A stretch of DNA of 64,000 bases. Origin: Lasiodiplodia sp. COLG20 (taxonomy: Eukaryota > Ascomycota > Dothideomycetes > Botryosphaeriales > Botryosphaeriaceae). Position numbers and translations under genes: made by a program. Location: positions 62,001-126,000 of the forward strand of contig VNWV01000007.1 of NCBI GenBank assembly GCA_009801085.1. The letters are read 5' to 3'. Shown in pieces: positions 26,540-38,581 of this stretch (its first letter is position 1; every line of letters starts with the position of its first letter). The notes beneath the pieces were generated by a model, which worked only from the letters and a program-made list of their open reading frames with translations, searched no databases and was not told the DNA's origin.

Positions 26540-26547
26540 AAAAAAAA
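26540..26547 (-). terminator. RNA polymerase III terminator of the tRNA gene
   Basis: Eight T on the minus strand, 20 nt after the tRNA 3' end. This is the expected Pol III stop signal. Confidence 0.8.
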
Positions 26548-26566: not shown

Positions 26567-26692
26567 TAGCTGAAAGTGGTTTCGATCCACTGTCCTCCGG
26601 GTTATGAGCCCGGCGCTATTAAATCTGTTAGTGAACTGAATTACGAATGTTCGAGTGGGAACTGCTTACCGCTTCCGCTGCGCCATTCAGCT
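26567..26692 (-). tRNA. Initiator tRNA-Met(CAT) carrying a 54-nt spliceosomal-type intron in the D-stem
   Basis: Exon 1 is 26692-26670 (23 nt), insert 26669-26616 (54 nt), exon 2 26615-26567 (49 nt including the discriminator A). Joined, they give a 72-nt tRNA: acceptor AGCTGAA/TTCAGCT (perfect, A1:T72), D-stem GCGC/GCGC, anticodon stem CCGGG/CCCGG around CTCATAA (anticodon CAT), T-stem AGTGG/CCACT with loop ATCGAAA. The A1:U72 pair, the three G:C pairs in the anticodon stem and A54 mark it as initiator type. A box (26675-26685, TGGCGCAGCGG) and B box (26578-26588, GGATCGAAACC) are intact. The insert starts GTAAGC, contains CACTAAC about 12 nt from its end and finishes ATAG. Canonical tRNA introns sit at 37/38, so this one is abnormal in both position and type. 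Whether it is spliced is unproven; a pseudogene is the alternative. Confidence 0.88.
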
Positions 26693-27130: not shown

Positions 27131-28869
27131 TCATTCATGTACTCCAGGCCTGCTGGTCTTCTTCAAGCCAGTTTTGTGCTCCGTATGTTCCTCCCTTAGG
27201 ACCAACCTGCCAACGAAAAGGCTCGCCACGCCCCCGATAACGGCAATGCCCGTGTACAAAATCCACAAATTCCGCAGACTCCACGCGTAAGCGTCTTCTA
27301 CCGTGGCCCGCTGCAAGTCATCGTGGAGCGTCTTCACAAGGTCGACATTGGCTGCGGCTTCCGGGCCGGACAGGGCTTCGATGAGATGGGCGTCAAGCCC
27401 GGCGGCCTTGAGATACGGCGCCCGCGATTTCAACCCGTTCTGCAGCAAGACACCCCCAATGACGATGGAGAAGGCGGCCGCGAGATTACGAGCAAAGGAA
27501 GTGGCTGCGGTGGCCGTAGCAGTGTCCTCGGAAGAGACGAAGGCCTGGACAGCCATAATCGGCGACTGAAAGCAGAGGCCTGAACCGGCGCCTGCAATGA
27601 TCTCGACTCCGACGATCAGGGCGTTGGAGGCGTCGGCCTTCAAGAGCATGTAGAGCCCGGTGCCCAAAGACAGGAGAAAGAAACCTAACCGCAAAGGGTG
27701 TAAATACTCTCCGGTTTGGTGGGTAAAGATGGCGACCGCAAGGCCAGTCAGTGCTGTGCTCAGCACCAGTGGAAGGACGAGAATACCGGAGCGTATGGGG
27801 GTGAGCTGCTTGGCAGACTGGAGGTACAGGGGCAGGAAGTACTCGCCAGCCATGAAAACCATGCTGTGCATGGACACGGCTGCAAGGGCTGCGAGATTGG
27901 ATTTATTGCGGAAAACCCTCAGCGGCATCAAAGGGTTGTTGGCCAAGCTGACCTCATTGAAGGCGAACGCGACAGATAAGAGACAACCGAAGACAAGCAG
28001 ACAGACGATCTTTGGGGAGTTCCACGGATAGATGACTCCGCCAAAGTCCAGAGCCAGGAGAATCATAATCGTTAGCCCAATGATTGCGACCATTCCTGTC
28101 CAGTCGATTGCACGGAGGCCGTCGCCAAGTTTGGTCCGCGGGTTGTGGATATCGAGCAAGAACAGGACGAGCAGGAATCCCAGAGCGCAGATGGGAATAT
28201 TCATCCAGAAGATCCATCGCCAGGACGCTAGCTCAGCCAGTGTTCCACCAATCAGAGGACCCACGCCTGCTGAAAGGGCGAAGTTCAGTTGGAAAAGCCC
28301 CAAGTAAAGGGTGCGTTGCCTGACACTGAAGAGGTCGGAGATGATGGCCGCTGGCAGCTGCAGGAGAGCACCACCAGCGACGCCTTGGAGGGCACGGCCG
28401 CACAGCAACATAGCAACATTGCGGGACAGTGCACATATGACGCAGCTGACGGCGTAGAGACCGATGTTGATGAGAATAATAGGCTTCCTGCCCCAGATGT
28501 CACTAAATTTAGCCCAAAGAGGAAGCGTGCACGCTTTTGCCAGCATAGAAGCCCCGCCGATCCACTTGGGAAGCACAAATTAGACTTTTCGGCAATCATT
28601 ATGCGGATAACCCACTTACAGTGTAACCCGTAGCAGAGTGTAGTTCTGACACGATCACAGGTATGGCAGTGGAGACAACTGTCGAATCCAGAGCCGCAAT
28701 GAACGCCGAAAGCTAGACATTATTCGCTCCGTCAATTTCTGTTCTGTCGAGCGCTGAATCCGAGCAAGATACTGACATAAAGCGCAAGCAGAATGAAATA
28801 TAGCCTCCATCGCCCCTTGGTCCGAGAAGAGGGATCGGGGGCGGACTCCGATGTCTGCAAAGTGGCCAT
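27131..28869 (-). CDS. MFS multidrug transporter, DHA2 family (14 TM)
   Basis: Proton-driven efflux pump of the 14-TM class that includes toxin and azole exporters; substrate unknown. Exons 28869-28777, 28712-28620 and 28564-27131 encode 539 residues. The N-terminal exons restore the family signature: LSAFIAALDSTVVSTAIP in TM1, then GYTWIGGASMLAKACTLPLW. Motif A appears as GKxSDIWGRKPI-like (FSDIWGRKPIILI) and motif C as GPLIGGTLAELASWRWIFW with its fold-defining prolines and glycines. The last TM ends before a basic tail (EHKTGLKKTSRPGVHE). Introns are 64 and 55 nt. Short N-terminus (22 residues before TM1). No biosynthetic cluster is adjacent. Confidence 0.92.
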
Positions 28870-36620: not shown

Positions 36621-38581
36621 AGTACGGGGAAAGCCATGGGCTGTCGACGCGGCATGGTGCGGGTGCGCATACGGAGCGTGCTTTGGGCCGGCGGTGTTCC
36701 AGTGTCCCTTCGTCACCGCGACGCGCCCAAGCGGTGCCGATCCCCCGAATCCGGCAAACCGAACGAGTCCACTTTTTTCATGTCACACGCCGACAAATCA
36801 CATCAAGCACACGTTTCAGATTGCACCGGCTCCAAACATGAGTATCATTACTATCTAATTTTTCTTGCAGTACAGCTATCTGTTGGATGTCAGCGCCAAC
36901 TCTTGGGAAGCGTGCGTGCAACAACGTGGATGGGTGGGTGAAGGTTCAGGTCTCCAAGGTGATAATTTGTTTCTTCAACGACTAATCTCAGGAAGAACAC
37001 AGCGAAATTATTGGGCTCATCAGGGAAGGGGATGGGGGGCTCGGTGGTGAAGGCACGCGTACCTGTTAGCATGGTCTGAGAAGCACAAGATAGAAATTCC
37101 CTGAAGCTTCACCTGTCAGCGCTAGTCCAACGACAGCTACGAGATCGCAATGAGATGTGGAATCCATCGTGAATCAGGCTATTACAAGTCAGCAACACGC
37201 GCCTCCAGTACGGGTGAGTTCCAAACATACCTCATTAAATCAGAATTTTCAGTGTTAATGTTCATTTCCAACCACGTTCGTTACACGTAGAGGGATCAAA
37301 CAGTGTGAATATTGATCATCATTTACGATGGCCTGGTAGGGGGTTTGCAGACTAGGAAAAATTGGAAATACCTGTGCGACTACGGTCAGCAAATCGTCCA
37401 AGGGCTATGAACCACCGAGAATGCCATGCAGCAGCAATCGCGGATCAGCTGACGAATTCTCAACAAGCAATCCTCCAAGGTGACATCCACAAGGTTTGTA
37501 CGCCTTGCTTTTGACGGCTGCCACCCGAAGTATGCACAGTCTGTCCGCCCGTTCGTTCAAATTTCCTCATGTGTCGCGCGGCTCTGCATGGCGGGGATTG
37601 ATGGCAAGAACATCGTACCTAGGCAAGACTCTGTTAGCCGATGCTCGCTGAATGCCAAAGATAGCAAAACAGTTGTAATTTTCTGGGTCAGACAAGGCTG
37701 AAACTTAAATTGACAAGATTCGACACCATGTGTTCGGATTGAGGAATGCCTTTCCGTTGTCGGTTGATCATCATCCAGAGGGAAGTCCAAAAAAAATTTG
37801 CGCATACCTTTTTTCTTAAAAAAATAATGAAAGACGGAGAAGCAGGCAAGGTTGGCTGCGACGGGATCGGGGACACGGTCTAAAAAGCCTGCATCTGACT
37901 CTGAACCGGCCCTTTAACCCTGTTGTCGCCCCGAGTGCCCAAAATCCGACGAGCGCACTCTTGGGATCACAGTATATGAGAAAAAGGCAGGCTGAAACTG
38001 AGGCGAAAGGTTAGCCAGGCTGCTCTAAGCATTCCTTGACACGCATTGAAGAGAATGGCGTGTGCTGTCAGGGTAATTCTAGAGCTTTTTCTTATGAATC
38101 CGCATGATCCTGTAGCAGGACTTGGGTTTGTGGATAAGAATGTATCATCACTGTACGCGATGCACGAAGAGGCGGTGGCGACTTACACTGAAAAAAACAA
38201 GGTGGAGAGGGCCACAGCGTGCAGGCGCAGATGGCTGTGGCCCTCAGAGCGCAGATTTTTGCGATGTTGAGAGGTTGAAGGGTTAGAGAAGAAAACGCGA
38301 CGGGTTCGCTGGAATTTTAGCTGTAGCGACGCGCTAGCGTCTGCCGAGCTCGGCCCGGACCCACCTTCCGCACGTGACTACTGCTCTCTATGCAACCAAC
38401 CCAGTACAGTTGTCAATGGTCCAGGCTACAAGAATTTCTCATTTAAACCCATGCAGCTCCACAAGCGACGGCTCAGGCTAGACTCGCTGGCATGCACTAG
38501 GTCGAGTTTCAGCTGAAAATTCCATTGATTCGAAGTGTAGTTTCATAAGTATCATCCAAGTCGTCAAAAACGGCGAGCTGT
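36621..38581. other. About 2 kb intergenic; one short inverted repeat
   Basis: Between the MDM1 start and the aldo-keto reductase end. No conserved frame. A perfect 12-bp inverted repeat with a 15-nt loop is at 38207-38245. Otherwise nothing is recognised. Confidence 0.5.
38207..38245. repeat. 12-bp perfect inverted repeat
   Basis: Arms GAGGGCCACAGC (38207-38218) and its exact reverse complement (38234-38245). Intergenic; might be a hairpin at an RNA 3' end or a dyad binding site. Confidence 0.75.

Follow-up and report, generated by a model that had tools for sequence, protein, structure and literature searches.

The interrupted initiator tRNA gene in this stretch of DNA raises the question of whether a nuclear tRNA gene transcribed by RNA polymerase III (Pol III) can carry an intron of the kind that the spliceosome removes from mRNA precursors. 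The gene lies in 64,000 nt of the Lasiodiplodia sp. COLG20 genome (the window), where the initial annotation had described two halves of an initiator tRNA separated on the minus strand by 54 nt (26616–26669) that begin with GTAAGC, carry CACTAAC about 12 nt before the end, and terminate in AG. The sequence reads as claimed, with the insert ending in TAATAG and the branch A standing 12 nt ahead of that end, and the proposed site in the 3′ strand of the D-stem was located between bases 24 and 25 (Table 1). Joining of the halves by script yielded a 72-nt tRNA that ARAGORN identified as tRNA-Met(cat); run on the whole window, the program detected no tRNA, and the initiator genes presented to it unjoined drew no call in three of four cases and a wrong call in the fourth. 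The further claim that the insert matches other introns of the window in size held roughly, in that 18 candidates from an ORF-joining heuristic, some of them probably false, measure 46–96 nt (median 56).

Table 1. The interrupted initiator tRNA gene and its parts, in window coordinates; the A and B boxes are assigned by consensus.
Feature	Position	Strand	Basis
Initiator tRNA-Met(CAU) gene, interrupted	26567..26692	-	sequence, genome search, intron joining
5′ exon, tRNA positions 1-24	26670..26692	-	read from sequence, joined tRNA
mRNA-type intron, 54 nt, at 24/25	26616..26669	-	sequence and signature comparison
5′ splice site GTAAGC	26664..26669	-	hexamer common to 4/4 initiator genes
Branch-site motif CACTAAC, branch A 26628	26627..26633	-	CTAAC, A 12 nt from end, 4/4 initiator genes
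3′ splice site TAG	26616..26618	-	YAG in 20/20 interrupted genes
3′ exon, tRNA positions 25-73	26567..26615	-	read from sequence, joined tRNA
Presumed A box TGGCGCAGCGG, uninterrupted	26675..26685	-	read from sequence, by consensus
Presumed B box GGATCGAAACC, uninterrupted	26578..26588	-	read from sequence, by consensus
Eight consecutive T, resembling a Pol III terminator	26540..26547	-	read from sequence

For the one protein compared, the closest named relatives are Botryosphaeriaceae (Diplodia seriata at 77%, D. corticola at 73%, and Macrophomina at 61%), and a metagenome protein reaches 97%. When the genome (43.5 Mb in 88 contigs) was searched with the interrupted gene of the window as the query, four places matched, all of them initiator genes. 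The initiator anticodon arm occurs, with at most one mismatch, at 22 places; all were inspected, and the only tRNA genes among them are the same four. An uninterrupted initiator copy, for which the initial annotation had proposed a genome search, was absent from these 22 places, and all four initiator genes are interrupted. The other three reside on other contigs and hold an insert at the same place with a different interior; the four introns measure 54, 55, 57, and 59 nt, and each starts with GTAAGC, contains CTAAC whose A lies 12 nt before the end, and terminates in AG. That three further genes keep the place and the splice signals, their interiors differing, argues that the insert is not a product of chance. 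The gene bodies come in two forms separated by paired changes in the acceptor and T stems, and in the 300-nt flanks the longest similarity extends over 26 nt (92%), directly downstream of two of the genes. As the searches revealed no initiator gene lacking the intron, its removal would have to be efficient if the assembly is complete.

The initiator is one of eight isoacceptors affected. Altogether, 20 interrupted nuclear tRNA genes were identified, with inserts at eight positions, and 16 of the genes, seven of the isoacceptors, and seven of the positions are additional to the initiator (4/4 genes, at 24/25). All six Phe genes are interrupted at 30/31, a count that covers genes with the Phe T arm and that Phe genes with a different T arm would escape; a seventh place, which differs from this arm at two bases, proved not to be a tRNA. 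Among Pro genes, inserts at 57/58 are present in three of five Pro-AGG and both Pro-CGG genes and in none of the one Pro-UGG gene; the Pro D arm, with up to two mismatches, matched 12 places, the eight exact matches all being Pro and the four inexact ones non-Pro. Two interrupted Arg-UCU genes (at 11/12 and 13/14) were found, along with single interrupted genes for Arg-CCG (26/27), Ser-UGA (53/54), and Ala-UGC (55/56). Positions were numbered by hand, and the 16 non-initiator genes were located through weak partial matches to the Rfam tRNA model combined with pattern searches, a survey that is non-exhaustive. ARAGORN recognised a tRNA in all 20 genes once they had been joined and assigned the expected isotype to 17 of them; for the Arg-CCG gene and both Pro-CGG genes the isotype was undefined or wrong, and the anticodons were read by hand. 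An additional intron in the anticodon loop is carried by 15 of the 20 genes (six Phe, five Pro, the Arg-UCU gene on C1, and the Arg-CCG, Ser, and Ala genes).

The inserts share a common architecture in all 20 genes: they are 50–60 nt long, run from GT to YAG, and contain [CT]TRA 10–12 nt before the end. The donor is GTAAG[TC] in 12, GTTAG[TC] in seven, and GTATGT in one, and the branch motif conforms to CTRAY in 18 and to RCTRAY in 17, with the branch A 10–12 nt from the end (by eye in Ala). The published fungal intron consensus combines a GTRWGT donor with an RCTRAY branch site 6–36 nt from the acceptor (PMC5832005). The full GTRWGT donor is present in seven of the 20 introns; the six initiator and Pro-CGG introns have GTAAGC and the seven Phe and Ser introns GTTAG[TC]. 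Two introns have another motif instead of CTRAY, namely that of Ser (50 nt, GTTAGT..CAG, CTAAG at 11 nt) and that of Ala (56 nt, GTAAGT..TAG, TTAAC at 12 nt), both distances being estimated by eye. Three features expected of U2-type introns were found, namely GT-AG ends, a branch site, and exact removal that restores a tRNA.

Several controls bear on this signature. The first 18 introns obey a strict expression (a donor GT[AT][AT]G[TC], a single CTRAY whose A lies 10–12 nt before the end, YAG, and a length of 51–60 nt); because the expression was written after these introns had been viewed, their fit to it is not independent, but its absence from 75 distinct uninterrupted nuclear tRNA genes and from 20,000 shuffled introns is. 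GT..AG ends occur in none of the 62 anticodon-loop introns that ARAGORN placed in the 75 control genes. In an unsupervised test on 175 sequences from the same genome (340,743 bases, overlaps included), 390 deletions with a donor, [CT]TRA, and YAG led to 20 distinct introns with an ARAGORN tRNA spanning the join, and these are exactly the 20 already identified; across 300 random segments of the window, none of 3,894 GT..YAG deletions gave such a tRNA. Intron interiors diverge and splice signals are constant. Without that of Ala, the introns (19) contain 13.3% G and have a folding energy of −0.060 kcal/mol per nt; the corresponding values for the 18 ORF-joined window introns, a heuristic set with some probably false members, are 28.2% and −0.216. 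Avoidance of TTTT was not significant (one of 18 introns, the Arg-UCU intron on C34, vs 2.4 expected by shuffling). The control genes themselves are a very intron-rich tRNA set (62/75 with an anticodon-loop intron, by ARAGORN), and their introns span many families, e.g. Asp, Glu, Met, Tyr, and Gly, with some labels doubtful.

In Pro-AGG, the intron borders are fixed without a splicing model by an exact empty site: subtraction of GT..AG from the three interrupted genes gives the two uninterrupted ones, identical over 88 nt that include the anticodon-loop intron. The presence of filled and empty sites within one genome makes this family suitable for the study of intron gain or loss.

These nuclear tRNA genes thus very probably carry U2-type GT-AG spliceosomal introns, Pol III serving as their polymerase, the spliceosome removing these introns, and the tRNA endonuclease taking the anticodon-loop intron. 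The suggestion that an mRNA-type intron interrupts a Pol III tRNA is strengthened by the 16 further genes, the empty site, the zero among 75 controls, and the failure to find an intact initiator gene. The sequence itself shows the intron signals, the exact joining of exons, and the empty site; we infer Pol III transcription, the order of the two splicing reactions, and, from the intron signals, removal by the spliceosome. Transcription by Pol III would be directed by the internal boxes and run to the downstream T run, and the spliceosome would recognise the three splice signals (donor, branch site, acceptor) of the transcript, such that the 50–60 nt intron would leave as a lariat and the cloverleaf would be restored. 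Where an anticodon-loop intron is also present, it would be removed by the tRNA endonuclease and ligase, probably as the second step because the spliceosomal intron disturbs the mature domain that the enzyme reads.

The elements that would direct transcription differ among the families. Five or more T lie 8–19 nt downstream of 13 genes (four initiator, three Arg, five Pro, and Ser), a long T run lies ∼9 nt downstream of the Ala gene (by eye), and T6–T7 lies 44–46 nt downstream in the three of six Phe genes that were read far enough. After all six Phe genes (L024, L029, L030, L286, L287, and L288) there is a conserved trailer with a CTTACC[AG]GTC..GACTGGT-like stem-loop; in the three genes read further, this trailer precedes the T run. 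The A and B boxes are both uninterrupted in the initiator, Phe, and Arg-CCG genes; in the two Arg-UCU genes the intron falls within the A box, for which inspection by eye revealed no convincing substitute, and the B box is broken in the five Pro genes, Ala, and Ser. GTTCGA is present in each of the five Pro introns, the Ala intron starts with GTAAGTTCGATCC, and the end of the Ser intron remakes G|TTCGAATC. These findings are subject to a discovery bias: a B-box-like pattern led to the Ser gene and one Pro-CGG gene, and Ala was detected through an Rfam match that may have used the intronic B-box copy; the second Pro-CGG gene and all three interrupted Pro-AGG genes were located by their D arm. 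In the 13 genes whose B box is uninterrupted, the intron lacks GTTCGA, though one has ATTCGAATC.

On balance, the sequences lean slightly toward a broader reading in which spliceosomal introns would have entered tRNA genes repeatedly in this fungal lineage, the initiator and Phe tRNAs would depend on the spliceosome, 15 of the 20 precursors would need two splicing machines unrelated to each other, and a B box carried by the intron (Pro, Ala) or remade at its 3′ end (Ser) would keep the gene transcribable. The Ala and Ser introns raise the probability of this broader reading; alternatively, the intronic GTTCGA may be a relic of a duplicated T arm. Reverse splicing is one of several possible origins of the introns.

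Could the inserts instead be ectopic tRNA introns cut by the tRNA endonuclease at a bulge-helix-bulge (BHB), as in archaea or Cyanidioschyzon merolae? The abundance of anticodon-loop introns in this genome would suit such a process, a few eukaryotes do have ectopic introns of the BHB kind (PMC4090602, PMC3978253), and one Pro-CGG insert contains a correctly registered 4-bp helix. This is, however, the only such central helix in 19 inserts tested (Ala not among them), against ∼1.5% per insert by shuffling; the full motif is present in none of the 19, and BHB cutting leaves the common GT, branch motif, and YAG unexplained, so that this reading is very improbable. Nor is there much to recommend the idea that the interrupted genes are dead and that functional tRNAs derive from uninterrupted genes that the assembly or the searches overlooked, as all four initiator and all six Phe genes found are interrupted, the bodies are otherwise intact, the initiator stems change in pairs, and the signals are kept while the interiors drift. 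The non-exhaustive survey, the division of the assembly into 88 contigs, the coexistence of intact with interrupted Pro-AGG genes, and one acceptor-stem mispair in the Ala-UGC gene (by eye) speak for dead copies, and a published view holds that D- or T-arm insertions in eukaryotic tRNA genes mostly mark pseudogenes (PMC4090602). We nevertheless consider this explanation highly unlikely.

A multiplying introner-like element, in place of single gains followed by gene duplication, would be an origin compatible with spliceosomal removal. Such elements have been reported in Dothideomycetes (PMC4457414), and the eight insert positions imply repeated gain. This origin is nonetheless rather doubtful: the genome search with the window gene, the one intron so searched, returned the four initiator genes only, and introns of different families are alike only in their splice signals (by eye). 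Among the remaining candidates, assembly error is unlikely with 20 interrupted genes on several contigs, and the positions 11/12, 13/14, 24/25, 26/27, 30/31, 53/54, 55/56, and 57/58 are not those of a canonical 37/38 intron. Self-splicing group I and II introns, which have a catalytic core of some hundred nucleotides, were rejected for inserts of merely 50–60 nt. As for other small RNAs, the single U6 match over the cut-off spans the whole model with no insert, and at least 35 5S rRNA matches over the cut-off, among the best candidates and on many contigs, span their model without large inserts.

The nearest known precedents for spliceosomal introns in tRNA genes are the introns of fungal U6 and U3, the former reportedly a subject of Canzler et al. 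in 2016. The fission yeast U6 snRNA intron, thought to have arisen by reverse splicing, is likewise small and spliceosomal and interrupts a structured RNA made by Pol III (PMC10484740), whereas the hosts described here are tRNAs of eight isoacceptors interrupted at eight positions. Fungal U3 snoRNA introns likewise have GT-AG ends and RCTRAY, and within one genome some paralogues may have the intron and others lack it, but the host is not a tRNA and no second splicing system is involved; according to this 2017 paper, U3 and U6 alone among small structured RNAs are known to carry introns often (PMC5832005). Canonical 37/38 introns also interrupt nuclear tRNA genes, including 15 of the same 20, yet differ in position, in the lack of GT..AG ends (0/62), and in removal by endonuclease and ligase. 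The premise of the initial annotation that nuclear tRNA introns sit at 37/38 requires qualification, as introns at other positions, some of BHB type and some of unclear type, occur in C. merolae and in algal nucleomorphs (PMC4090602, PMC3978253). These introns and those of archaea resemble the present ones in occurring in D and T arms and several per gene, but they are BHB or very short inserts, and the excerpts do not describe spliceosomal signals in them (PMC4090602, PMC3978253). The tRNAscan-SE 2.0 paper gives a single intron as the limit for a eukaryotic tRNA gene (PMC8450103). The open-access literature, to which the search was directed and which excludes subscription papers and preprints, yielded no precedent for spliceosomal introns in tRNA genes.

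If this interpretation is correct, translation itself would require the spliceosome, given that no intact initiator gene was found. The splicing of tRNA and that of mRNA are taught as separate worlds, and here mRNA-type introns appear in the very tRNA that starts proteins. How Pol III transcripts reach the spliceosome and how two splicing systems share one RNA would both be testable in this fungus. Gene finders can miss or misname such tRNA genes, the blank ARAGORN result on the window being an example.

Some minor observations accompany the survey. Fourteen places outside the 75 controls were not parsed into a gene (L193, L195, L199, L202, L208, L215, L224, L236, L243, L252, L275, L276, L289, and L290). 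L193 and L275 proved to be the interrupted Ala and Ser genes, four others (L195, L199, L215, and L243) receive an ARAGORN tRNA call without any deletion, the label being doubtful for L195 and L243, and the other eight gave no ARAGORN tRNA with or without deletion. L243 (C45:1061880-1062180) combines an Ala-type tRNA 3′ end with a long inverted repeat at the expected site of the 5′ half. The pattern GGTTCGGTAAGY, designed for insertions at 57/58, had 13 matches vs 34 in the control; two are the Pro-CGG genes, and the other 11 are pattern matches only. A pattern search of a viral contig collection for the eukaryotic initiator form matched no place, and the tRNAs shown by patterns in the viral and other genome contig collections look prokaryotic by eye. 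Within the window, an open frame upstream of the tRNA gene (27134-28579, minus strand) resembles, by eye, a major facilitator transporter, and two box C/D snoRNAs, Afu_294 and Afu_455, lie at 36943-37027 and 37686-37778 on the minus strand.
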